A DNA stretch of 29,215 bases. It comes from a virus. Each line of letters opens with the position of its first letter. Position 1 is the first letter of the stretch. Under the pieces are notes generated by a model, which ran no database searches, was not told where the DNA came from, and saw nothing but the letters and a program-made list of their open reading frames with translations. The DNA is taken from IMG/VR virus record IMGVR_UViG_3300032213_001083, positions 1-29,215 of that record. The stretch is one strand, 5' to 3'. Both the position numbers and the translations under genes were made by a program. Of this stretch, positions 2,080 to 29,087 are shown piece by piece.

Positions 2080-2261
2080 AATATATCAATGAGATTGTCA
2101 CGTCAAGTGATGCGTCTAAGTATGCCAAAATCACGTTGATATCACTGTACAAGATATACGATAAACACACTGGAGAGAAGACAACCGATTGCTTTTGTGC
2201 CAGGACAGTGAGGAAGATATATTATAAGCAATTCATCGAATGGTATGAAGCGAACACTTGA
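2058..2261 (+). CDS. Hypothetical protein (67 aa)
   Basis: The product starts MFSEAEVKYINEIVTSSDAS and holds DCFCARTVRKIYYKQFIEWY. It is helical and charged with a CxC in the middle. The layout (short helical protein with a Cys pair just before a sigma-like gene) recurs in Bacteroidota phages as I remember them, but no function is known. It overlaps both neighbours by 17-22 bp, consistent with tight coupling. Confidence 0.5.
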   Translation: MFSEAEVKYINEIVTSSDASKYAKITLISLYKIYDKHTGEKTTDCFCARTVRKIYYKQFIEWYEANT

Positions 2262-2784
2262 CCGATATATCTCAAGGCACTATGATGAGGTGAGGAGTTA
2301 CACTGAGTATTTCCTCACTAAATTCAAGGCCAAGATGAGTGCTGATGTAGTCATCAACAATAGCTATCTTTATGTGGCTGAGATAAGTGATGATACAAAG
2401 GATGAAAATAAGGTCAAGAGCTACTTATTGAATACGATTAAAAAGCAAATATTGTGGTCCACTTCAATCAGTCATATCGAGGAGAGAGTCAATGCCAATG
2501 AGCTTGATATTCCAAATGACTGCGATGATGATGAGGATTTGAATCACAAGATACAGCAAGAGAAGAAATATCACGACCACAAATCGTGCATTGAGATATA
2601 CAAGAGAGAGATGAAGGACAGAATCAAGGTCATAATCTTTCAAGCATATTATGAGAAGGGATACAACACCGCCAGGTCAATGGCCAAATACTTTGACATT
2701 CCGGTGACATCGGCTCATTATTACATTAGGGACATTAAACACGATCTAAATAGGATAAAAAATGAGAATCAAGGAGGAATATAA
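2245..2784 (+). CDS. Sigma-70/ECF-like RNA polymerase sigma factor
   Basis: The 179-residue protein has the build of a small ECF-type sigma factor. Residues about 15-75 look like region 2 (ADVVINNSYLYVAEI followed by KVKSYLLNTIKKQILW, matching the usual '.DVVQ.vyl...' and 'v.sYL....rn...' helices). An acidic linker follows at 87-100 (DIPNDCDDDEDL). Residues 125-175 resemble region 4 with a helix-turn-helix (NTARSMAKYFDIPVTSAHYY). It would direct host RNA polymerase to phage promoters. The only candidate phage-specific element I see is TTAATATAT before four late genes. The gene sits at the end of the early string, immediately before terminase, a sensible place for a late activator. A general HTH protein remains possible. 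Confidence 0.6.
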   Translation: MKRTLDRYISRHYDEVRSYTEYFLTKFKAKMSADVVINNSYLYVAEISDDTKDENKVKSYLLNTIKKQILWSTSISHIEERVNANELDIPNDCDDDEDLNHKIQQEKKYHDHKSCIEIYKREMKDRIKVIIFQAYYEKGYNTARSMAKYFDIPVTSAHYYIRDIKHDLNRIKNENQGGI

Positions 2785-3061
2785 AGGGAAAACTATTGTC
2801 AAACACGCAACAGTTAGAAACATAACCGTTGTTGTTGATAATATAGATGTATCAAAGTACAAATATTATGTGTCAATTGGCATGGGATATTTATTTGAGG
2901 ATGAATCAGAAACAACAACCGCACCTGAGCAATGCATCAAGTATGAAGGCATCGAGCAGGAAGTGGAACAAACAACAATAAGTGATGCCAAATCCAAGAC
3001 AAAACGAACAAAAAGAAGAGTATCTCCAAAGGTGCATGGCGGACTCGGAGAGTCAGAATAG
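2762..3061 (+). CDS. Hypothetical protein (99 aa)
   Basis: The N-terminal 55 residues form a probable beta-rich domain (GKTIVKHATVRNITVVVDNI ... YYVSIGMGYLF). The C-terminal 40 residues are charged and likely disordered, ending in KSKTKRTKRRVSPKV. It overlaps the sigma-like gene by 23 bp and the HAD gene by about 77 bp in another frame, an unusually long overlap. No family is recognised. It may be a small virion or packaging accessory because of its place before terminase. Confidence 0.5.
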   Translation: MRIKEEYKGKTIVKHATVRNITVVVDNIDVSKYKYYVSIGMGYLFEDESETTTAPEQCIKYEGIEQEVEQTTISDAKSKTKRTKRRVSPKVHGGLGESE

Positions 3062-3454: not shown

Positions 3455-3883
3455 ATGGGAAGACCACGCAACTTTGAAACACCGGAGGATTTATATGAGC
3501 TATTCGAGAAGTATCGGAAGCACGTTAAAGAGAATCCAAGATATCAATATTCATTGAGTAACAAAACTGGGAAAGCTGAGCCTATTCCATTGGAAGCTCC
3601 ATTGACTTTGAGTGGATTCAGAGTATTTTGCCACGATCACTCTTTGGTTGTGCAGGATTATTTTGCGAATAGTGGAGGGAATTATTCGGCATTCTCGACA
3701 ATCTGCTCACGTATAAGCGACGAAATTCGCAACGATCAAATTGCCGGAGGGATGGTTGGACAATACAATGCGTCCATCACTCAACGCTTAAATGGACTCA
3801 CCGAGAAGTCGGACATCACGACCAATGGAAAGGACATCAACGAAATCAAGGTGAACATCATCAAACCGGATGGAGATAAATAG
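3455..3883 (+). CDS. terS: Terminase small subunit
   Basis: The product begins MGRPRNFETPEDLYELFEKY and contains PLTLSGFRVFCHD and DQIAGGMVGQYNASITQRL followed by NGLTEKSDI. These are hallmarks of the small terminase family of Bacteroidota phages, in which an N-terminal helix-turn-helix region recognises the packaging site and a C-terminal part contacts the large subunit. At 142 residues it is of usual length. It overlaps the large subunit gene by 14 bp. Together they select and cut concatemeric DNA and drive it into proheads. Confidence 0.88.
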   Translation: MGRPRNFETPEDLYELFEKYRKHVKENPRYQYSLSNKTGKAEPIPLEAPLTLSGFRVFCHDHSLVVQDYFANSGGNYSAFSTICSRISDEIRNDQIAGGMVGQYNASITQRLNGLTEKSDITTNGKDINEIKVNIIKPDGDK

Positions 3884-5021
3884 CACCGTAATCTTTGAGA
3901 AGAACTACGAAGCTCTCCAGGATAAGGATGTACGTTTTATAATAAATGAGGGAGGAAGTAGGTCATCTAAGACATATTCCCTTTGTCAAATGATAATTGT
4001 CTATTCTCTCCAAAATAGGGGGAAGGTAACCTCTATTATCCGAAAAACTTTCCCGGCTCTCAGAGCAACAGTCATGAGGGATTTCCTTGAGATTATCAAA
4101 ATGATGGATCTATATGACATCAATGCTCACAATAAGAGTGAACACATCTACACATTCCCGAATGGAAGCATCGTGGAGTTCTTCTCAGTGGATGACGAAC
4201 AAAAGATACGAGGAAGGAAGAGGGACCTCGCATGGTGTAATGAGGCCAATGAACTATTCTATGATGACTTCACTCAGCTCAACATGAGGACTGAATGGAA
4301 GCTCATATTCGACTACAATCCAAGTGAATCAGCATCCTGGTTGTATGAGCTACCGAAGGAGGAGAGTATCCTCATCAAATCAACGTACCGTGACAATCCA
4401 TTCCTTCCGGATTCCATCCGTAGACAAATCGAGGACCTCAAGAGAACGGATGAGTCACTGTATCAAATTTATGCACTCGGAGAGAAGGCAATCAGTAAGA
4501 GCAACATATATTCCAATTGGACCTTCGTGAAGCATAGACCTGCTAGATTTGTGAACTATGTCTATGGCCTTGACTTCGGTTACAATCACCCCACTGCTCT
4601 CATGCGAGTGTATTGGTGCGAGGATGACATCTACATCGAGCCGGTGATATACGAGAGCTACCTCACCACCACCAACCTCATCGAGAAATGTGAGCAACTT
4701 GGAGTGGAGAAACACATCACGATCGTGGCCGATTACGCACGACCGGAGATAATCGCGGAGATGAACAATGCAGGGTATGATGTTCAGAACGCGAACAAGG
4801 TTGTGAAGAAAGGCATCGACAATATCAAGACCTTCGGAGTGTTCTGCGAGGATGAGTCCAGGATTAAGAAGGAATATGAGAATTATAAGTGGAAGAAGAT
4901 TGGTGACCAAATCACTGATGAGCCGGTGAAGCTATGGGATGATGCCATGGATGCGGTGCGATATGCCGGTACTTATATCCGAAAGGAATACTATACCGAT
5001 GACAGTTACTTCGCCTTCTAA
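3870..5021 (+). CDS. terL: Terminase large subunit (PBSX-like)
   Basis: This is the packaging ATPase and nuclease. The Walker A motif is GGSRSSKT at residues 28-35 (K34). The Walker B region is LAWCNEAN at 120-127 with catalytic E125. The C-terminal RNase-H-like nuclease has D235 (YGLDFGYNHP), D288 (VADYARPE) and the acidic cluster WDDAMDAVRYA at 356-366. The length (383 aa) is in the short range for this family, and the start overlaps the small subunit gene. The gene is intact. The next gene is preceded by a TTAATATAT element, so terminase probably belongs to the previous transcription unit. Confidence 0.93.
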   Translation: MEINSTVIFEKNYEALQDKDVRFIINEGGSRSSKTYSLCQMIIVYSLQNRGKVTSIIRKTFPALRATVMRDFLEIIKMMDLYDINAHNKSEHIYTFPNGSIVEFFSVDDEQKIRGRKRDLAWCNEANELFYDDFTQLNMRTEWKLIFDYNPSESASWLYELPKEESILIKSTYRDNPFLPDSIRRQIEDLKRTDESLYQIYALGEKAISKSNIYSNWTFVKHRPARFVNYVYGLDFGYNHPTALMRVYWCEDDIYIEPVIYESYLTTTNLIEKCEQLGVEKHITIVADYARPEIIAEMNNAGYDVQNANKVVKKGIDNIKTFGVFCEDESRIKKEYENYKWKKIGDQITDEPVKLWDDAMDAVRYAGTYIRKEYYTDDSYFAF

Positions 5022-5039
5022 ACAAAAGAGGTATTTTTG

Positions 5040-5048
5040 TTAATATAT
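5040..5048 (+). promoter_or_regulatory. Late start/promoter element TTAATATAT, site A
   Basis: The 9-mer TTAATATAT ends 2 nt before ATG 5051 and is preceded by a T-rich run (GTATTTTTG). Identical 9-mers precede ATGs at 13601, 15304 and 17901, with 2 or 4 nt between. All four are the first genes of presumed late units. I infer a phage-specific promoter giving nearly leaderless mRNA, or a translation-start element. Confidence 0.5.
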
Positions 5049-5050
5049 AT

Positions 5051-6679
5051 ATGGCATTTAGAACAAAGAAAATATCGCAGATGGATCCGAAAGGAGCCAA
5101 CCTTGCATCGACCGATTTATTGGAGATATCTGAATTGGTTAGTGGAAGCTATGTAACCAAGTCAATCACTGGAGCTGAAATCATTTCCAGTGCGACAACG
5201 GGATACGTCCCCTACGTTGGTGCAACACAAGACCTAGAACTAGGAGCAAACGAACTATACACGGGTAAACTTTGGCTATACGATTCAGTCAATGATAACT
5301 ATGGAAGCGTTCACTTTACCGATACTGATTTTCATATCGAGGATGCGGATGGACACAAGATGCTAGTTATCGAAGATGGGTTTATGCAAATCCACAAGAC
5401 CGATACAATCCAATCCAATCTATTTACAAGCGGATTAACTGCGACACGTAACCACTATTTACCCGATGCTAGTGGAACTATTGCCTTGACTTCGGACTTG
5501 TCTAGCTACGTTCCAACGACTCGCACAATCTCAACAACCGCTCCATTGAGTGGAGGAGGTGACCTTTCAGCAAATAGAACGCTTTCGATTCCAAAGGCAA
5601 CTAATTTAGTCGATGGATATTTATCCGCTACGGATTGGACAACGTTTAATGGAAAGCAACCTACACTAGTTAGCGGAACAAACATAAAGACGGTAAATGG
5701 AACTACGATTCTAGGAAGTGGTGACTTGACTATATCTACGGGAATCACAATCGGTACGACTGCAATCACTTCGGGTACTGTTGGACGTGTATTGTTTGAA
5801 GGTACGGGAAATGTAGTAAGTGAATCGGCTAATATCACGTGGGATAATACTAATAACATATTCAATGTTACGGGTTTAATTAAAGCTACTCAAAACAATA
5901 TTTATGCTACTCACGTAGGAGCAAATATTAAAGGATTATACATTGTAAATAATTCGGATTCGGTTGTAAGAGCGGGTTTACAGTATGACGGAAATACTGC
6001 TTTTGTTGAATTAGTAGGAAGATATAATAACGGACAGACATTTTTCCGTCAAGATGGAGGTAATGGAAATATTTCATTTTTAAGAAGTGGTAGCGAATAC
6101 GGGCGTATTTTTGGAGCAACGGGGAATTGGGGCATCAACACCACCACAGACGCAGGATACAAGCTAGACGTTAATGGTACTGCGAGGGTGAGTGGAGAGT
6201 TAAGAGCGGGTAGTTTACAATTATTAACTTCTGGAAGTCCAGGCACAACGGGTCAAGGAATAACTACAACGGCAAGAAAAATATCTTTTCAATCACAAGG
6301 TGAAATTAATGTTGATGGGGCAACCACCTACCAATTACTTGGGTATGCTGATAGTCCCGTCGCTATGACTCAAAATGCTAGTGGTAGAACAATTGGTTTT
6401 CTTCAAGTAAAAGGCGGTTTCTCATCTCCAAATTTTAATAACACACAAGCTAATTTATTATGGATAAATCCGACATATAATATGTCTGGTACAGCAAATA
6501 CGGGGCAAATTTTAAGAGGTATTTATTATAATCCTACTTTAACTGATTTAACGAATGCTACACACTACGCGTTTCATTCAACAAGTGGTAGACACCGATA
6601 TGAAAATTTACCTACTTCACCAACGGGACTTGCTTCGGGTGACTTATGGAACAACTTAGGAATTTTATCAATAGTATAA
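5051..6679 (+). CDS. Tail fibre / appendage protein
   Basis: The N-terminal ~45 residues (KKISQMDPKGANLASTDLLE) match the virion-anchoring start used by several Bacteroidota phage fibres. Residues about 155-215 hold the fibre-type repeat LSGGGDLSANRTLSIPKATN and LSATDWTTFNGKQPTL. Near residue 355-385 is a shaft-type segment (GNWGINTTTDAGYKLDVNGT). The C-terminus lacks an obvious chaperone/peptidase domain. It probably trimerises and carries host-recognition function. Codon use in about 5200-6900 (many ACG, GCG and GGA codons) looks different from neighbouring genes, consistent with exchange of the receptor-binding part. It begins a late unit. Confidence 0.75.
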   Translation: MAFRTKKISQMDPKGANLASTDLLEISELVSGSYVTKSITGAEIISSATTGYVPYVGATQDLELGANELYTGKLWLYDSVNDNYGSVHFTDTDFHIEDADGHKMLVIEDGFMQIHKTDTIQSNLFTSGLTATRNHYLPDASGTIALTSDLSSYVPTTRTISTTAPLSGGGDLSANRTLSIPKATNLVDGYLSATDWTTFNGKQPTLVSGTNIKTVNGTTILGSGDLTISTGITIGTTAITSGTVGRVLFEGTGNVVSESANITWDNTNNIFNVTGLIKATQNNIYATHVGANIKGLYIVNNSDSVVRAGLQYDGNTAFVELVGRYNNGQTFFRQDGGNGNISFLRSGSEYGRIFGATGNWGINTTTDAGYKLDVNGTARVSGELRAGSLQLLTSGSPGTTGQGITTTARKISFQSQGEINVDGATTYQLLGYADSPVAMTQNASGRTIGFLQVKGGFSSPNFNNTQANLLWINPTYNMSGTANTGQILRGIYYNPTLTDLTNATHYAFHSTSGRHRYENLPTSPTGLASGDLWNNLGILSIV

Positions 6680-13139: not shown

Positions 13140-13585
13140 TATCATACCAAGCATTGACCGATGAAATCATCGCATTCTACAACGCACATCTACAAGTTAA
13201 AAAGGTAGGCACTGATTTCAAAGAGCAGTTATTCAACTTCGCTACAAAGGATGAGAAGTATCCATTGGTATATATCGTTCCAGTGGATGTAGTTGCAAGT
13301 GATAACGTGAACTTATTCAACCTGGAGATATATTGCTTTGATATCATTCAAAAGGATCGTGCAAATATCACCACAATTCTCTCAGATACTCAGCAGATTC
13401 TCAATGACCTTTACTTGAATTACACATTCTCATTGACCGATACTGATTTTGATGTTGAAGGATTCCCAACATTCACACCGCTGAACAATGACCTCTTGGA
13501 TTATGCAGCGGGATGGTTGATGAACATCACATTTGTCTTACCTTCGTGGACAGATTGCCAAATTCCTGAACAAATTCCGAATTAA
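13136..13585 (+). CDS. Tail completion/terminator-like protein (149 aa)
   Basis: The protein starts MISYQALTDEIIAFYNAHLQ. It has a mixed alpha/beta layout and DIIQKDRANITTILSDTQQI in its middle. Size and place resemble tail-terminator or neck proteins. It is ATGA-coupled to the tape measure. Alternative: a minor tail protein. The family assignment is by context and not by a definite motif. Confidence 0.5.
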   Translation: MISYQALTDEIIAFYNAHLQVKKVGTDFKEQLFNFATKDEKYPLVYIVPVDVVASDNVNLFNLEIYCFDIIQKDRANITTILSDTQQILNDLYLNYTFSLTDTDFDVEGFPTFTPLNNDLLDYAAGWLMNITFVLPSWTDCQIPEQIPN

Positions 13586-13587
13586 TA

Positions 13588-13596
13588 TTAATATAT
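13588..13596 (+). promoter_or_regulatory. Late start/promoter element TTAATATAT, site B
   Basis: TTAATATAT ends 4 nt before ATG 13601, in the 15-bp gap after the previous stop. It shares the exact 9-mer with sites at 5040, 15293 and 17888. No terminator separates it from the upstream operon, so it would add transcription rather than start a fully separate unit. Confidence 0.45.
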
Positions 13597-13600
13597 AAGT

Positions 13601-14023
13601 ATGGCTTATAAAAATACCGGTGAATTCAATATACTTTATCCAACAAGGAGAAAGGTTGCCAATGTACTCAAGAACGTAATCAAGCAAGAGGCATTGATTG
13701 ATACCGGTACCTTGTATGATTCAGTGCGTATTAATGCCAAAGTAACTCTTGAGGGAAATCTTCGTATTCAAATTGTTGCAGCATATTACTTCGGATTCCT
13801 TAACAACGGTACAATCAGTATTGCTCCATTTGATTTGGTTCGAAAGTTCAATACTCAGCTTGAGCAACAAGGATTGATATCCGAAATGTATGGTCAATAT
13901 GTTAGCAAATTAGCTAAGACCTATCCAATCTTGGAACTTGGTGGATTGCTTCGTAAAAAAGTCAAAGTCATTTATGATTTCCAACCTCTATTTGGAGAGT
14001 TTTGGGATGCATTAGATTACTAG
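13601..14023 (+). CDS. Neck / tail-completion protein, HK97 gp10-like
   Basis: The product contains ALIDTGTLYDSVRINAKVTL, and then IQIVAAYYFGFLNNGTISI. The 'DTG.L..Sv..' followed by a beta strand and an aromatic 'Y..f.n.GT' is characteristic of gp10/neck-type proteins that join head and tail. The gene is the last rightward one before two leftward genes, and its stop TAG overlaps the stop of the leftward gene as CTAG (14020-14023). It starts with a TTAATATAT element. Confidence 0.6.
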   Translation: MAYKNTGEFNILYPTRRKVANVLKNVIKQEALIDTGTLYDSVRINAKVTLEGNLRIQIVAAYYFGFLNNGTISIAPFDLVRKFNTQLEQQGLISEMYGQYVSKLAKTYPILELGGLLRKKVKVIYDFQPLFGEFWDALDY

Positions 14024-14751
14024 ATTTCCAACTCTTTTCTCATTGCGAGGAAGTTGAATATCAATACCAATTTGGTATCGGTTATTGCATCGAACTTTGA
14101 GAGGTCACCATTACACATGGTCCATATCAATTGCTCCCACCCCCATTTGGATGATTTCTTTTCCTCTTCCTGCTCTTTGCGTTCCTCTTCATCGGTTGAT
14201 TCTTCCTCATCATCGAATGATTCACTCATCAGATTGGAATGGCTATCAAGAAAGTTTTGGCGAAACTGAAGATACTCAGGTATCAATCCGAATACCGAGG
14301 TGATGGGATGCTCATCGAATAGGTGAACACGATCACTTGATTTGAATTTGTATGGCTCGGTGATAACATTCCCCCATTCATCAGTTGATGTCTTTCGGTA
14401 AAGAATCGCACATATGTTGCGGAGGTTATTGATGTAGTCATCAGTGACGAATGCCTCCAGTGTGATAAACTCACCGAGAGTGATGTCAACAAATGGCTTG
14501 AGCTTCAATTCACCGAGTTGATGCTGATATCTTTTGGATGGTTCTGATGTCATCCATGCAAGTTGCTTGGTTATATCCTGGAGTTCATCAAGTTCTATAT
14601 CATCAAAGTCCTCAACCGGAAGGTCTGAGAGGATGGATAACACATCAATGTTATATTCAAATGTTCCATCCTCAATGTTTAAAGACCTTATCTCAATGAA
14701 TTGCTCAATCGTTACTTGGCTCCACTGCTTCGGGAGCTTCAGATTTTGCAT
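14020..14751 (-). CDS. Tail assembly chaperone-like protein, distal partner (T-like)
   Basis: The 243-residue protein starts MQNLKLPKQWSQVTIEQFIE and has TLGEFITLEAFV near residue 92. Its C-terminal part is a strongly acidic linker (SFDDEEESTDEEERKEQEEE) followed by a helical tail (KWGWEQLIWTMCNGDLSKFD). The phrase 'VTIEQFIEI' matches 'LTIEQFEKV' in the upstream gene. The reading frame overlaps that of the upstream gene by 47 bp and is offset by +1 (or -2), as in tail-chaperone G/GT pairs. It may be expressed alone from its ATG or by frameshift. Leftward orientation is odd for tail genes here. Confidence 0.5.
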   Translation of the reverse strand: MQNLKLPKQWSQVTIEQFIEIRSLNIEDGTFEYNIDVLSILSDLPVEDFDDIELDELQDITKQLAWMTSEPSKRYQHQLGELKLKPFVDITLGEFITLEAFVTDDYINNLRNICAILYRKTSTDEWGNVITEPYKFKSSDRVHLFDEHPITSVFGLIPEYLQFRQNFLDSHSNLMSESFDDEEESTDEEERKEQEEEKKSSKWGWEQLIWTMCNGDLSKFDAITDTKLVLIFNFLAMRKELEI

Positions 14752-15259
14752 GGGATGCGATTTTTTCGGTTACAAATACCAGATAAGGAACTGCGATTTC
14801 AGCTTTCAGTTGTTTGAATAGCTTTGATTTATACTTCAAATGTGCTTCAGCGTAGTGCTCAGTGGGTGAAAGGTCACTTCGTTTGAACATCAATGCCAAC
14901 AAATCACTTATCCAATTGTTGGATTTGCGACTAATCAACTTCTCAATCATCTTGGTATCCTTCACCGATAGCTTTAATTGTCCATGGTAGGTATATCCAT
15001 CCAATTCAATCGACTCAACTGCATCCTTTTTCTCGTATTTTGACGAGTTGAATTCCTTCACCTTCTCAATAAACTCGGAAAGTTCCACTTCATTCTCATC
15101 CCATTCGGATTCCTTCACACCAAAGTATTCAAAAATCTTGATATATCGGTCGATGTTATCAAGCTCTTGGTTATTGGTGATTTCAGTTACCTTTTCGAAT
15201 TGTTCAATGGTCAACTCATCCATTCGGTTGGGGATTTCCCGGTCAAAAATCTTTATCAT
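14705..15259 (-). CDS. Tail assembly chaperone-like protein, proximal partner (G-like)
   Basis: The 184-residue protein begins MIKIFDREIPNRMDELTIEQ and continues FEKVTEITNNQELDNIDRYI. It is helical and acidic, like small tail chaperones that hold tape-measure protein before tube assembly. The 3' end overlaps the next leftward gene by 47 bp. An A6 run on the minus strand (complement of 14761-14766) lies exactly where the second frame first opens after its upstream TAA (14772-14770). The gene begins leftward from a promoter TAAATTTG (complement of 15277-15284). Function is inferred from layout. Confidence 0.5.
   Translation of the reverse strand: MIKIFDREIPNRMDELTIEQFEKVTEITNNQELDNIDRYIKIFEYFGVKESEWDENEVELSEFIEKVKEFNSSKYEKKDAVESIELDGYTYHGQLKLSVKDTKMIEKLISRKSNNWISDLLALMFKRSDLSPTEHYAEAHLKYKSKLFKQLKAEIAVPYLVFVTEKIASHAKSEAPEAVEPSND
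14761..14766 (-). promoter_or_regulatory. Candidate programmed frameshift site (A6)
   Basis: Read leftwards the sequence is ACC GAA AAA ATC in the G-like frame. Slipping +1 or -2 on the six A's puts AAA under the tRNA-Lys in the next frame and continues into TCG CAT CCC ATG of the second gene. That frame is closed by TAA at 14772-14770 and open after it, so the A6 is the first place a slip could work. Confidence 0.4.
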
Positions 15260-15276
15260 GTGTATTGTTTTATGAA

Positions 15277-15284
15277 CAAATTTA
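15277..15284 (-). promoter_or_regulatory. Leftward promoter -7 box TAAATTTG
   Basis: The minus strand reads TAAATTTG, matching the Bacteroidota -7 consensus TAnnTTTG. It lies 18 nt from the ATG at 15259. A convincing -33 TTG at 17-20 bp is not seen, so it is probably moderate or regulated. It faces away from the rightward TTAATATAT element at 15293-15301. Confidence 0.45.
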
Positions 15285-15292
15285 CAATTTTT

Positions 15293-15301
15293 TTAATATA
15301 T
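15293..15301 (+). promoter_or_regulatory. Late start/promoter element TTAATATAT, site C
   Basis: TTAATATAT ends 2 nt before ATG 15304, after a T7 run. It is one of four identical sites. It sits 9 bp from the leftward -7 box, so the two divergent promoters could not be fully used at the same time. Confidence 0.5.
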
Positions 15302-15303
15302 AC

Positions 15304-16281
15304 ATGACCAAAGACCTGCCAATATACAAAATCACTATTGATCCCGAATATTCTGATGGAGAAGATTTGGGCATTGAGCAGATTGCATTTACTTCTCAAC
15401 CGGCAATCAAGGTGAAAGGAATGGCATTCGAACAAGTACAACGAATGGTATTTGCTGATGACTTAAAGTATCGAATCACCGCACCGGCAATGATACCGAT
15501 GGAGATATACCGCAAGGACAACGAGCAAGGTGAATACTATGTTCAATTTTCAGAGGAAACAATCGCGAAGATTCACGAGAAGTTCATGAGCGACCTTCGA
15601 AATCGTGACCTATTCAACCTGGAGCATGACACATCCAAAACAGTTCCGGCATATATCTTGGAAACATGGGTGGTTGACAATCCAAAACAAGATAAGGCCT
15701 TCAGTACATTCGGTATTGATGTGCCAAAAGGTACGTTAATGGTGACTGCTCAGATAACTGATAAAGAGTATTATGCTGAATTGGTTGCCAATGACCAAGT
15801 TGGATTCTCAATCGAGGGATTCTTGGGATTGAAATTAAGTAATCAATTAAACAAATATAACATGAACAAATTACCTGATGGGGAGCACTTAATCGATGGC
15901 AAAATCTACGTTGTTGTGGATGGCGAAATCGTTGAGATTAAGGATGCACCAATTGTCGAGGAGGCAATGGAAGAAGTTGCAATGGAAGAAGTTGCATTGG
16001 AAGAAACAGTTGTTGAGGAAGAAGCTCCAATTGTAGAAGATGCAGTGAACGAAGAAATGGCAATTGATCCTGCAATGGATTCAGAGGCTATCCTTGCAAT
16101 CGTTACACCGATTCTTGAGGAGAGAGAGAAAGCAATCATCGCATTGATCGCTGACCTTCGTAACCAAATGGAAGAGATGATGGTTACTGAAACGGAAGTT
16201 GAGGCAACTGACAACAAAACTAAAATGTCAATCCATGACAAATTTAGTGCAGTGAGTAAATTTTTAAACACAAATAACTAA
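15304..16281 (+). CDS. Prohead protease (XkdF-like, S78_2) fused to scaffold-like tail
   Basis: I start at ATG 15304 (MTKDLPIYKITIDPEYSDGE), just after the TTAATATAT element. Residues 1-180 resemble XkdF/Peptidase_S78_2 phage proteases: LFNLEHDTS with H108 and NDQVGFSIEGFLG with S169 as likely catalytic pair, preceded by ETWVVDNPKQDKAFSTFGID. Residues 190-325 are Glu/Ala-rich with predicted coiled coil (EEREKAIIALIADLRNQMEE), ending in a basic stretch. This layout fits a protease with a C-terminal scaffolding (delta-like) domain that directs procapsid assembly and is then degraded. No separate scaffold gene is seen before the capsid. Confidence 0.75.
   Translation: MTKDLPIYKITIDPEYSDGEDLGIEQIAFTSQPAIKVKGMAFEQVQRMVFADDLKYRITAPAMIPMEIYRKDNEQGEYYVQFSEETIAKIHEKFMSDLRNRDLFNLEHDTSKTVPAYILETWVVDNPKQDKAFSTFGIDVPKGTLMVTAQITDKEYYAELVANDQVGFSIEGFLGLKLSNQLNKYNMNKLPDGEHLIDGKIYVVVDGEIVEIKDAPIVEEAMEEVAMEEVALEETVVEEEAPIVEDAVNEEMAIDPAMDSEAILAIVTPILEEREKAIIALIADLRNQMEEMMVTETEVEATDNKTKMSIHDKFSAVSKFLNTNN
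15964..16008 (+). repeat. 15-bp tandem repeat inside protease-scaffold gene
   Basis: GCAATGGAAGAAGTT is present at 15964-15978 and 15979-15993, followed by a diverged unit GCATTGGAAGAAACA at 15994-16008. It encodes A-M-E-E-V repeats in the acidic linker between protease and scaffold parts. Such in-frame repeats can change copy number without breaking the protein. Confidence 0.7.
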
Positions 16282-16300: not shown

Positions 16301-17233
16301 ATGAGCAGAAAATTAAAATTCGACTTGGACATTGACGCATCAGCGTTATTACAAGCAAACAGCGAGGCATTCTATTCTCGTGCGTATTTACAAGAGGAAA
16401 CGGTTGACAATTACCGTACTTTGCCAGGAATTAAATTTAAGACGAAAATTTCCAACGTCACATTCGGACAAGTGTTGCAGGCCGAGAACTGTGGGTGGAA
16501 TTCTTCAACTGACGAACTTGCTTCAGTAGAAGTTGACGTATGTGGATTGTCTGCAATGGCTGAGATTTGTCAATTCCAATTGGAGCAATCATTCGTATCA
16601 TTACAAATGACAAAAGGATCTAACGGTGATTTCACAGTAGCTTCATTCATGGATTACTATTGGGGAGAAATGGCGAAAACAATCGCTGAGAACGTTGAGA
16701 AATTACGTTGGTTAGGTAACACAAGCTCACAAGTTCCTGCACTTGCATTGTGTGATGGTTATGTGAAGTCATTACTTGCTGATGATGCAGTGATCGATAT
16801 CGCTTCTCCAGTTGCAATTACTCCATCAAATGTTCTTGCTAAATTGGCATTGGTATACGCTGCAATTCCTGCTGCGGTTATCGCTAACCAAGAGAACTTG
16901 AGAATCTATGTATCTTCACCGGTTGCTACTGCATATCGTGCTGCGGTTGCTGCTGCGAATACTCAAGCTAACTTGACTCAAGCATTGGATTTCTCTTATT
17001 TAGGTATCAAGATGGTATTGTGTCCAGGTATGGGTACAACATCAAAAATCGTTGCTACATTGAAAGATAACTTAATCTATGCATTCGATGCTGAAGGAGA
17101 TGGTAAAGCATTACGTGCTATCAATTTAGCTGATACAGTTGCTGAGCCGGTTATCCGTACTCGTGCAAACATGAAAGTTGGATTCACTCATGTGAATGGT
17201 AATGAGATTGTATTCTACAACTCTGCATCTTAA
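16301..17233 (+). CDS. Major capsid protein
   Basis: The 310-residue product (MSRKLKFDLDIDASALLQAN) follows the protease gene with an A-rich leader (AACAACAAAACAAAATG). Codons are biased to GCT/GTT/GCA and resemble a strongly expressed gene. The protein has the alternating alpha/beta structure of an HK97-type capsid, with an alanine-rich central helix (AAVIANQENLRIYVSSPVAT) and a C-terminal strand set (RTRANMKVGFTHVNGNEIVF). A hairpin terminator lies immediately downstream. The context is highly specific. I do not recognise a chain cleavage site. Confidence 0.85.
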   Translation: MSRKLKFDLDIDASALLQANSEAFYSRAYLQEETVDNYRTLPGIKFKTKISNVTFGQVLQAENCGWNSSTDELASVEVDVCGLSAMAEICQFQLEQSFVSLQMTKGSNGDFTVASFMDYYWGEMAKTIAENVEKLRWLGNTSSQVPALALCDGYVKSLLADDAVIDIASPVAITPSNVLAKLALVYAAIPAAVIANQENLRIYVSSPVATAYRAAVAAANTQANLTQALDFSYLGIKMVLCPGMGTTSKIVATLKDNLIYAFDAEGDGKALRAINLADTVAEPVIRTRANMKVGFTHVNGNEIVFYNSAS

Positions 17234-17865: not shown

Positions 17866-17887
17866 ATAAACATTTTTGAAGGTTTTC

Positions 17888-17896
17888 TTAATATAT
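17888..17896 (+). promoter_or_regulatory. Late start/promoter element TTAATATAT, site D
   Basis: TTAATATAT ends 4 nt before ATG 17901 and lies directly downstream of a strong terminator. If this motif were not a promoter, the portal-lysis genes would lack an obvious one. This is the best placed of the four copies. Confidence 0.6.
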
Positions 17897-17900
17897 TAGT

Positions 17901-18242
17901 ATGATTTACATTGATAAAGGTGAGGTTAATTCAATTGTGCTGACTCTGACTGAGGTGAGCACCCTCTCGAATCCGTATTATTTGTTCGTTTTTGAGAATG
18001 AAATGGATACAACCGACACTCCCATCCTATTCACCACCGATGACATCTCCGATTGGAAGGAAAGATTCAATCTCTTCTTATTGGATGAGCCGGTTGATGT
18101 GATTTTGGTCAAGGGACAATACCGATACTCAGTGTATGAATCAACAATTCCACCAACATCTATCCAGGACACGACCGGAGTGGTCATCGAGGAGGGTAGA
18201 ATGGTTGTAAGTGGTGCAATAACAAACTCAATCTACGATTAA
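17901..18242 (+). CDS. Small virion protein, beta-sandwich-like (113 aa)
   Basis: The product starts MIYIDKGEVNSIVLTLTEVS and has NPYYLFVFENEMDTTDTPIL. The 'n.ivltlte.ttl.np.YLF.f.ne' pattern is frequent in proteins beside portal genes in Bacteroidota phages. It probably forms an immunoglobulin-like or beta-sandwich domain on the virion. Function is unknown. It leads the portal/connector/lysis operon. Confidence 0.6.
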   Translation: MIYIDKGEVNSIVLTLTEVSTLSNPYYLFVFENEMDTTDTPILFTTDDISDWKERFNLFLLDEPVDVILVKGQYRYSVYESTIPPTSIQDTTGVVIEEGRMVVSGAITNSIYD

Positions 18243-18244
18243 AC

Positions 18245-19564
18245 ATGGGATTATTTGACCGATTCAGAACAACAAAGCAGGAATCACCCGAAGTGGTAGA
18301 AGGATATCAATCCTTTTCAACACCATTTCTTAAAATTGGCTCAGGGAATTTATCTCTTCCATATGTTAATGGGAGGCATCAAACGAGTGGATGGATTCCA
18401 TTTGGTGATGCGAATTTATTTCCTTCGGTATTGAATCAATTGGTATATTCATCACCATTGCATGGAAGTATCGTGGATTACAAAACAAATGCAGTCATTG
18501 GTGGAGGAATTGAATTGAAAACAACCACAACGACACCTCAAGAGCTCCTTGAATTGTACACATTTGAGAAGAAATCTAGATTGAAAAAGACAGTTCGGAT
18601 TACAACCGAACAATTGATTGTACACAATCGTGTTTACTTTAAATTGTACTTTGATGATAAAATGAAACTCACAAGGATGGAGAATCAATCTCCGGATAAA
18701 GTGAGAAGAGGACGTGATCACAATGACTATTTCCTTTGTGATGATTGGTCCGCAAGAATTGACGTGAGAGAAATCAAAAGATATCATCCAACCTGCACCG
18801 ATAAATGCCAACTATTTGTATATGAGGTTGAGTGTTTAGGTCAAGAGTGGTATCCACTTCCAAAATACACCTCAGCACTTAATTTTGCATATCTTTCGGG
18901 AGAGCTTTCGTACTTCGCAAAATCCAATATTCAGAACAGTGTATTCCCTTCATTCGCAATGATGTTCCCAAAAAGACCGCAGTCGGAAGAGGAGAAAAAT
19001 GTCCTGAGAAATACGATGGACAAAATGAAAGGTGCTGCGAATGCCGGTAAAGCTGTCGCATTCTTTTCAAATGGTGCAGAGCAGATGCCTAAAATTGAGA
19101 GCATTCCAACCAATCAAAACGATAAACTATTCCAGGAAGCATCCGGATTGAATACTGAGCAGATTTGTTTTGCTCACACAATAGATCCGATACTGATGGG
19201 AGTTCGAACAACGGGCTCACTTGGCTCAGGTAGTGATATCAAACAAGCGTATGTGATATTTGAAAAAAATGTCGTAATGCCATTAAGAGAGCAGGTTGCT
19301 GATATCTTCAATGAGATACTTCGAATTGCAAAAATCAATGCAGATTTCACAATCAACAACTTCCAAATCATCAATGAAACAATCGTTGAGGTGGAAGGTG
19401 ATGCATCCAAAACTCAAGACGCATTGAATGCTATGAGTCCATTGGTTGCGACTAAGGTATTGGATACCATGACACCGAATGAAGTGAGAGCTCTCGCATC
19501 GTTACCTCCGATTGAAGGTGGAGATGTTATTGCAAGTAATCAACCACAAACACCTCAAGTATAA
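18245..19564 (+). CDS. Portal protein
   Basis: The 439-residue protein starts MGLFDRFRTTKQESPEVVEG. It has a portal-like wing and stem pattern: FPSVLNQLVYSSPLHGSIVD near 60-80, a long central helical stem, and TIDPILMGVRTTGSLGSGSD near 315 followed by IKQAYVIFEKNVVMPLREQV. These match the crown-proximal part of SPP1/PBSX-type portals. Twelve copies would form the DNA gate at the head vertex. Position after capsid and tail tube is unusual; portal usually follows terminase. Confidence 0.82.
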   Translation: MGLFDRFRTTKQESPEVVEGYQSFSTPFLKIGSGNLSLPYVNGRHQTSGWIPFGDANLFPSVLNQLVYSSPLHGSIVDYKTNAVIGGGIELKTTTTTPQELLELYTFEKKSRLKKTVRITTEQLIVHNRVYFKLYFDDKMKLTRMENQSPDKVRRGRDHNDYFLCDDWSARIDVREIKRYHPTCTDKCQLFVYEVECLGQEWYPLPKYTSALNFAYLSGELSYFAKSNIQNSVFPSFAMMFPKRPQSEEEKNVLRNTMDKMKGAANAGKAVAFFSNGAEQMPKIESIPTNQNDKLFQEASGLNTEQICFAHTIDPILMGVRTTGSLGSGSDIKQAYVIFEKNVVMPLREQVADIFNEILRIAKINADFTINNFQIINETIVEVEGDASKTQDALNAMSPLVATKVLDTMTPNEVRALASLPPIEGGDVIASNQPQTPQV

Positions 19565-22566: not shown

Positions 22567-22596
22567 TTTGCATTTATGAAACCTTTCATATCTTTG
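22567..22596 (+). promoter_or_regulatory. Strong host-type promoter TTTG-N18-TATCTTTG
   Basis: TTTG (22567-22570) is followed after 18 bp by TATCTTTG (22589-22596), a good match to the Bacteroidota promoter consensus. The start of transcription would be near 22603 and the first gene begins at 22623. It should drive the early/replication operon. Confidence 0.8.
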
Positions 22597-22622: not shown

Positions 22623-22790
22623 ATGAAAAAACAAGAAATGATTGACGCAATTATCCAGGAACATAATGTTCTATGGAATGAGTACATGGAGATGCTTGAG
22701 GCATTTGGAATTAATGATGAGGGAACTCAGAGAGCAGGAACACGAGCTGCAACACTTGGACAATTAATCGATAAACTAGAAATAAGATGA
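22623..22790 (+). CDS. Small helical protein (55 aa)
   Basis: The product starts MKKQEMIDAIIQEHNVLWNE and ends RAATLGQLIDKLEIR. It resembles short helical proteins often first in early operons of Bacteroidota phages ('.LI..I..EHN.LW.EY.E....fGi.de'); function is unknown. It lies directly downstream of a strong promoter and is ATGA-coupled to the next gene. Confidence 0.7.
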   Translation: MKKQEMIDAIIQEHNVLWNEYMEMLEAFGINDEGTQRAGTRAATLGQLIDKLEIR

Positions 22791-23696: not shown

Positions 23697-23947
23697 AACC
23701 ATCAACCAAAATACTCGCCATCGTTGGAATACTTCCGGTGATTGGTGACTTCATCGAGGACATGAATGATGAGAAGATATTCACAAAGTCAATAAAACAA
23801 AAGGCGAATATGCTACTCGATGAGATTCGACGAAGTGATAAGAGATTACTCGATGATGCCGGAGAAGAGATATGGAATCAACAAATGGATATACAAATGG
23901 CCTTCAGACAATGGCTACAAAACGCAGAAGATGACAAAGAACGATAA
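23693..23947 (+). CDS. Hypothetical protein (84 aa)
   Basis: The product starts MKPSTKILAIVGILPVIGDF and then is helical and charged (EKIFTKSIKQKANMLLDEIR). The N-terminal hydrophobic stretch is too short to be a sure membrane helix. It precedes the DnaA-IV-like gene with a 17-bp overlap, so it might be part of the replication unit. No family is recognised. Confidence 0.55.
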   Translation: MKPSTKILAIVGILPVIGDFIEDMNDEKIFTKSIKQKANMLLDEIRRSDKRLLDDAGEEIWNQQMDIQMAFRQWLQNAEDDKER

Positions 23948-24335
23948 AATAAAAGCAATTAAATACATCATCCAACGAGATGCATTGGATGTAACGAGTC
24001 GACACCAGGTATTGACAATGAGAAGGAGATACCTAATGGCTGAATTGAGAGCATTGAATCTCCCATTCCATTCCATTGGTGAACTATTCAATCGAGGTCA
24101 TGCAACAGTGATGCATAACATCAAGCAACACAATTGGTCCGTTGAGAGTGGTGATTTATATTACATTACCGTAATTCAAGATGATATCGATGAGCTTCAG
24201 GGAAGTGCTAATGTAAAAAAATTACGATTTTTGAGAGATGATATCCTCAAATGTAGATCATACAATCAGCTCAAATCAATCAAAAGGAGAGTGTTGAGGA
24301 ATGAATATGAGGAGCTCTTGAGCGGTGATGCGTGA
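23931..24335 (+). CDS. DnaA domain IV-like DNA-binding protein (candidate replication initiator)
   Basis: I start at ATG 23931 (MTKNDKIKAIKYIIQRDALD), within the end of the preceding gene. Residues 20-68 match the DNA-binding domain IV of DnaA: DVTSRHQVLTMRRRYLMAEL, then ALNLPFHSIGELFNRGHATV and MHNIKQH. The segment R55-G-H-A-T-V-M-H aligns with the DnaA signature GRDHTTVLHA, and the first helix R..vl...RRrYLMAELR with the R.....a.yL..el region. There is no AAA+ domain. The C-terminal 60 residues are helical. It sits directly before an iteron-rich gap and the primase-helicase, so it may bind the origin. A regulator role is the alternative. Confidence 0.7.
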   Translation: MTKNDKIKAIKYIIQRDALDVTSRHQVLTMRRRYLMAELRALNLPFHSIGELFNRGHATVMHNIKQHNWSVESGDLYYITVIQDDIDELQGSANVKKLRFLRDDILKCRSYNQLKSIKRRVLRNEYEELLSGDA

Positions 24336-29060: not shown

Positions 29061-29087
29061 ATGATAACTAAACAACAAGAACAATGA
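29061..29087 (+). CDS. Mini-ORF MITKQQEQ, second copy
   Basis: Identical to the eight-codon ORF at 805-831, ending in TGA that overlaps the ATG of the next gene. See the finding on the coupling cassette. Confidence 0.4.
   Translation: MITKQQEQ

Follow-up and report, generated by a model that had tools for sequence, protein, structure and literature searches.

Genomic Context of the Sigma-Like Gene

The window, meaning the whole stretch of viral DNA analysed here, comprises positions 1 to 29,215 of IMG/VR record IMGVR_UViG_3300032213_001083. Positions 2245-2784 (plus strand) hold an intact open reading frame (ORF) for a 179-aa protein that a first-pass annotation had described as a phage sigma-like factor and candidate late transcription switch. 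The translation is as described there and contains both of the peptides quoted. The ORF is conserved at full length in 461 related IMG/VR viral stretches and, given such conservation across hundreds of viral contigs, it is a real gene; its product has a predicted fold that matches sigma factors. Searches of 84,980 bacterial and archaeal genomes and, by tblastn, of GenBank phages yielded no relative of the protein.

The gene had been placed immediately before terminase, which is roughly correct: the gene for the terminase small subunit, at 3455, is separated from it by two short ORFs. The terminase small and large subunits (3455-5021, plus strand; large subunit at 3870-5021) were recognized by PHROG matches (E-values of 2.8e-15 and 6.7e-39, respectively) and are encoded downstream of an embedded predicted promoter described below.

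Sequence Profiles and Predicted Fold

The profile comparison proposed in the first-pass annotation (Pfam sigma70_r2 and r4) yielded no match to the protein. Pfam, PHROG, and PDB-sequence profile searches were run with the single sequence and with the alignment, and none of them call it a sigma factor; the best sequence matches in a PDB hmmsearch were unrelated VPS4 chains (E 0.11). Sigma70_r2 (PF04542) matched neither the window nor any of 15 related contigs; its only match was in the Nonlabens phage P12024S, discussed below. Sigma70_r4_2 (PF08281) had no match in the window, and its four weak, sub-cut-off matches in the contigs of relatives were not placed in the sigma-like gene. Some family members match generic helix-turn-helix (HTH) models (Mga, E 1.6e-4, and DUF7437).

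The region-2-like half and the region-4-like HTH proposed for this protein are thus not recovered by sequence profile, but they are recovered by predicted fold. An AF2 model built with 25 family members, of moderate confidence (mean pLDDT 73.6, pTM 0.38), has helices at residues 2-11, 13-26, 33-43, and 54-83, followed by a weak linker and helices at residues 97-122, 126-136, 143-150, and 154-177. The first four helices make up a predicted σ2-like half (residues 1-85, positions 2245-2499, plus strand), on which the covariation described below also bears, and the last four a predicted σ4-like half (residues 97-177, positions 2533-2775, plus strand) with the HTH at 143-150/154-177. In structural comparisons (VIA), residues 1-85 matched σ2 of RpoE (5uxx_C; Z 7.4, rmsd 2.9), residues 103-179 matched sigma-H (3mzy; Z 8.8, rmsd 2.0), and the σ4-like half matched region 4 of E. 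coli σE (2h27_D; Z 7.4, rmsd 2.8), Z values of 7-9 not being decisive alone for a helical protein. Foldseek matches in the PDB for two AF2 models are nearly all sigma factors, with both domains covered; the best is 9n9q_C (E 0.0089, prob 1.00), single E-values of this kind being weak. Matches in BFVD include a phage protein named 'sigma-70 region 2' (A0A6J7WFY6, E 7.5e-4). The overall rmsd is large because the relative placement of the two halves is uncertain. Both Foldseek and VIA recover a σ2 fold followed by a σ4 fold, in this order, in a model of moderate confidence, and we assign the protein as a sigma factor by predicted fold at that same moderate level.

Predicted Late Promoter Element

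The first-pass annotation had also mentioned a phage-specific 9-mer at late units. This 9-mer is indeed present as TTAATATAT at 5040, 13588, 15293, and 17888, each time shortly before a late gene. The four copies (about 0.25 expected) all lie at most 15 bases from a late start codon, and each forms the -10-like part of an element with two blocks, AACA-N14/15-TTAATATA, of which the window has four exact sites compared to 0.06 in shuffled sequence. All four are on the plus strand. AACA-N15-TTAATATA at 5021-5047 precedes a gene at 5051 (542 aa), and the same arrangement at 13569-13595 precedes a gene at 13601 (140 aa). The site at 15275-15300, with a spacer of 14 (AACA-N14-TTAATATA), precedes the gene at 15304, which is head maturation protease-like and is followed by a capsid-like gene at 16301 (PHROG). 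The last, again with N15 (17869-17895), precedes a gene at 17901 (113 aa), after which comes the portal gene at 18245 (PHROG). Two minus-strand genes at 14020-15259 (243 and 184 aa, possibly involved in tail assembly) oppose the late string; they diverge from the gene at 15304, and the 44-base gap between carries the 15275 promoter.

The two-block element occurs in 30 of 31 related contigs, with one to four copies each, and a reversed-pattern control gave a count near zero. The gene-start sites of these relatives precede the same four late genes, with spacers that have diverged in sequence and are constant in length. A position matrix trained solely on other clades ranked the four window sites 1-4; one of ten Markov sequences scored within the range of these sites, and the ranking and the shared positions therefore weigh more than single scores. 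The late genes are preceded by a predicted two-block promoter at fixed spacing, with 29-32 bases from AAC to the start codon in most cases (the start is further downstream in the relatives L140 and L147). The element is restricted to the starts of late units and is absent from genes inside them. When all viral contigs were scanned for the element followed by ATG, the matches listed were mostly single chance-like sites, and four short contigs carrying two or three sites were checked, all of which encode late proteins of this family. Most start codons follow the end of the -10 block by a few bases. The late mRNAs therefore probably have no leader or almost none, and the geometry of the promoter suggests that late RNA begins at or next to the AUG.

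Early Promoter and Host

A search for host-type promoters returned one plausible site, TTTGC-N17-TATCTTTG at 22567-22596 (plus strand), which precedes the gene at 22623 at the start of the early genes and is conserved in relatives. The consensus of host σABfr promoters is TTTG / TANNTTTG (PMC6847099). The -7 element TANNTTTG was not found at the late units, which carry TAATATA. The host-type promoter and the nearest known phages, which infect Nonlabens and Flavobacterium, suggest a Bacteroidota host.

Other features were recorded as well. The spacer of the early promoter (22567-22596) is conserved between clades (ATGAAAC[CT]TT) and could serve as an operator or activator site. Stretches of (TAAC)TAAACAACAAGAACAATGA occur before small early ORFs at 99-120, 560-578, 809-830, and 29065-29085, and so at both ends of the window. 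They may represent a repeated leader or a cassette join, and the ends may join, as in a circular or permuted genome. A 171-aa ORF at 23820-24335, with no PHROG match, contains LFNRGHATVMHNIKQH, similar on visual inspection to the DnaA domain IV motif.

A Copy of the Element Inside a Coding Sequence

A fifth, predicted late promoter, AACA-N15-ATAATATA (2819-2845, plus strand), lies inside ORF 2762-3061, in coding sequence upstream of the terminase genes, where it reads AACATAACCGTTGTTGTTG-ATAATATA. Over the first 61 codons of this ORF in 39 orthologues, 35 degenerate codons keep their amino acid, and just four of the 35 are without any synonymous change: N20 (AAC), N27 (AAT), I28 (ATA), and D29 (GAT). 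All four sit in the boxes or directly behind them. The embedded copy starts no identified gene, and there is no ATG behind the site in most of the clade with changed promoters described below. The same type of test ruled out a promoter-like match within the clade B sigma gene, because the AAC box of that match is not codon-conserved.

Covariation of the Protein and the -10 Block

Contig 3300020573_000030 encodes terminase proteins 95% identical to those of the window and a sigma-like protein with 54.5% identity. The segment after W71 is STSISHIE in the window and QNLDTNKQ in this contig (sigma WQNLDTNK), and all four of its orthologous late promoters read GCAATATA, with AACA and the spacing unchanged. 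Its late boxes have changed, and its early promoter has remained TTTGC-N17-TATCTTTG. In this sister clade, W[QK]N[LV]D takes the place of WSTSxS, and CAATATA that of TAATATA in the late promoters; further members agree at the first promoter. Counted by orthologue, which replaced a noisy regex tally, distinct typed non-coding late sites pair TAATAT with a WxTSxS sigma in 64 of 64 cases (two more TAATAT sites are untypable) and CAATAT with the other sigma type in 4 of 4.

The embedded site is split between the same sigma classes: 16 of 16 sequences have the codon GAT on one side, and 8 of 8 have GAC on the other. This change is synonymous, so selection on the protein does not explain the switch. 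Since the changed clade is monophyletic (100/100), there was one event on the protein side, matched by five or more changes in DNA; the change of the -10 box and that of the segment after W71 coincide in this one clade. The first-pass annotation had offered the link between protein and promoter as inference, and it is now strongly supported by comparison of sequences, in which the two-block late promoter changes together with the protein.

In clades C and D, AACA-N15-[AG]CAATATA-GGT-ATG overlaps the end of the sigma gene, yet the sigma is of the TS type; this promoter-like element may be a coding coincidence or a weak promoter. In members of this group (L334, L343, L053, and relatives), the last 50 bases of the sigma gene (KQN..LQYRYE) spell AACA-N15-[AG]CAATATAGGTATG right where the next small ORF starts, possibly a promoter overprinted on the sigma C-terminus.

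Proposed Late Switch and Alternative Explanations

We consider it very probable that a diverged ECF-like phage sigma factor drives late, probably near-leaderless, transcription in this phage. This prediction is supported by the fold, the position of the gene, the syntenic sigma gene of P12024S and, above all, the covarying two-block promoter. Early genes would start from the single host-type (σABfr) promoter at 22567, and the phage sigma, presumably made near the end of the early string, would bind the core of the host RNA polymerase. AACA would serve as a -35-like block read by the HTH, and TAATATA as a -10-like block recognized by the segment around W71 and following it. The resulting holoenzyme would start the terminase operon (2819) and the four structural units (5021, 13569, 15275, and 17869). 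The chances are about even for a more specific version, in which the choice between TAATATA and CAATATA at all late promoters of the genome, the embedded one included, is set by a few residues behind W71 and the late mRNAs are leaderless.

The protein could instead be an HTH activator, recruiting the host holoenzyme by binding to the AACA box, as the missing sigma profile match and the generic HTH matches of some members might suggest. We regard this as unlikely, because both halves match sigma factors in the order σ2-linker-σ4, the late -10 block TAATATA differs from the host TANNTTTG, and the block that covaries with a segment of the N-terminal half is the -10 block rather than AACA. A little less probable again is that a host ECF sigma or another phage protein recognizes the late promoters and that the covariation reflects shared ancestry only. 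In its favour, the changed clade is a single clade in which other genes differ too. Against it, the terminase genes of the changed contig remained 95% identical where the sigma-like protein fell to 54.5%, at least five separate sites changed alike while the host-type early promoter did not, and in an independent phage group, promoters of the same type go with a Pfam-positive sigma. Least probable, and hardly credible, is that TTAATATA is a translation-initiation signal unrelated to the sigma-like protein, Bacteroidota being devoid of Shine-Dalgarno sites: it adjoins start codons, and initiation in F. johnsoniae depends on bases just 5' of the AUG, for example A at -3 (PMC6847099), but there is a second block, AACA, at fixed spacing, late unit starts alone carry the element and genes within units do not, and no identified gene starts at the embedded copy (2819), whose boxes are codon-invariant all the same.

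Phage sigma factors as a kind are already known. What is new in the phage sigma proposed here is its invisibility to sequence profiles, the matched set of promoters, the embedded copy, and the probable leaderless starts. We found no paper in the literature on late promoters of small Bacteroidota phages, in which gene control is little described. Two naturally occurring sigma types, each with its own matching -10 box, make the sigma-promoter code directly testable; host-independent late expression and leaderless translation in Bacteroidota become testable as well, and orthogonal sigma-promoter pairs are on offer for Flavobacterium-type hosts. If the more specific version is true, Bacteroidota phages run a leaderless late programme in a host that makes mostly leadered mRNAs, and the embedded promoter costs a coding sequence part of its synonymous freedom.

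Comparison With Known Systems

Phage sigma-like proteins that redirect host RNA polymerase to middle or late promoters include SPO1 gp28 and gp33/gp34 and T4 gp55, the last of which acts together with gp33 and the sliding clamp. These systems differ from that of the window in their hosts and promoters, and we know of none among them that is paired with near-leaderless late mRNAs. The best whole-model fold match is the sigma factor of an RNA-guided transcription complex (PDB 9n9q chain C), although identity is 10-14% and that system is guided by RNA.

The architecture is also that of ECF (group IV) sigma factors such as E. coli σE and M. tuberculosis σH and σL, which have σ2 and σ4 joined by a short linker in about 180 aa. 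ECF sigma factors recognize an AAC motif in the -35 block, and AAC is likewise the core of the -35 block in the window promoters, where the -10 block follows some 20 bases later. Unlike ECF sigma factors, the window protein has no detectable sequence similarity to Pfam Sigma70_r2/r4, an AT-only -10 block, and no cellular relative that we could find.

A further parallel is phage P12024S of Nonlabens (Persicivirga), which was reached through its protease and portal and not through its sigma gene. Profile-profile comparison (hhalign) of the two sigma families was not significant (E 0.077), and their common origin is therefore unproven. P12024S gp33 scores above the Pfam Sigma70_r2 cut-off, unlike the window protein, and its promoters have a spacing three bases longer and a -10 block that begins CGTTAAT. 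Like the gene in the window, gp33 is located just before terminase, and the P12024S late element (AACAAA-N-GTTAAT) also stands directly 5' of the ATG. In full it reads AACAAA-N16-CGTTAAT and precedes the terminase-side gene and the structural units, the distance between AAC and ATG being mostly 31-32 bases; the same arrangement occurs in IMG/VR relatives of gp33.
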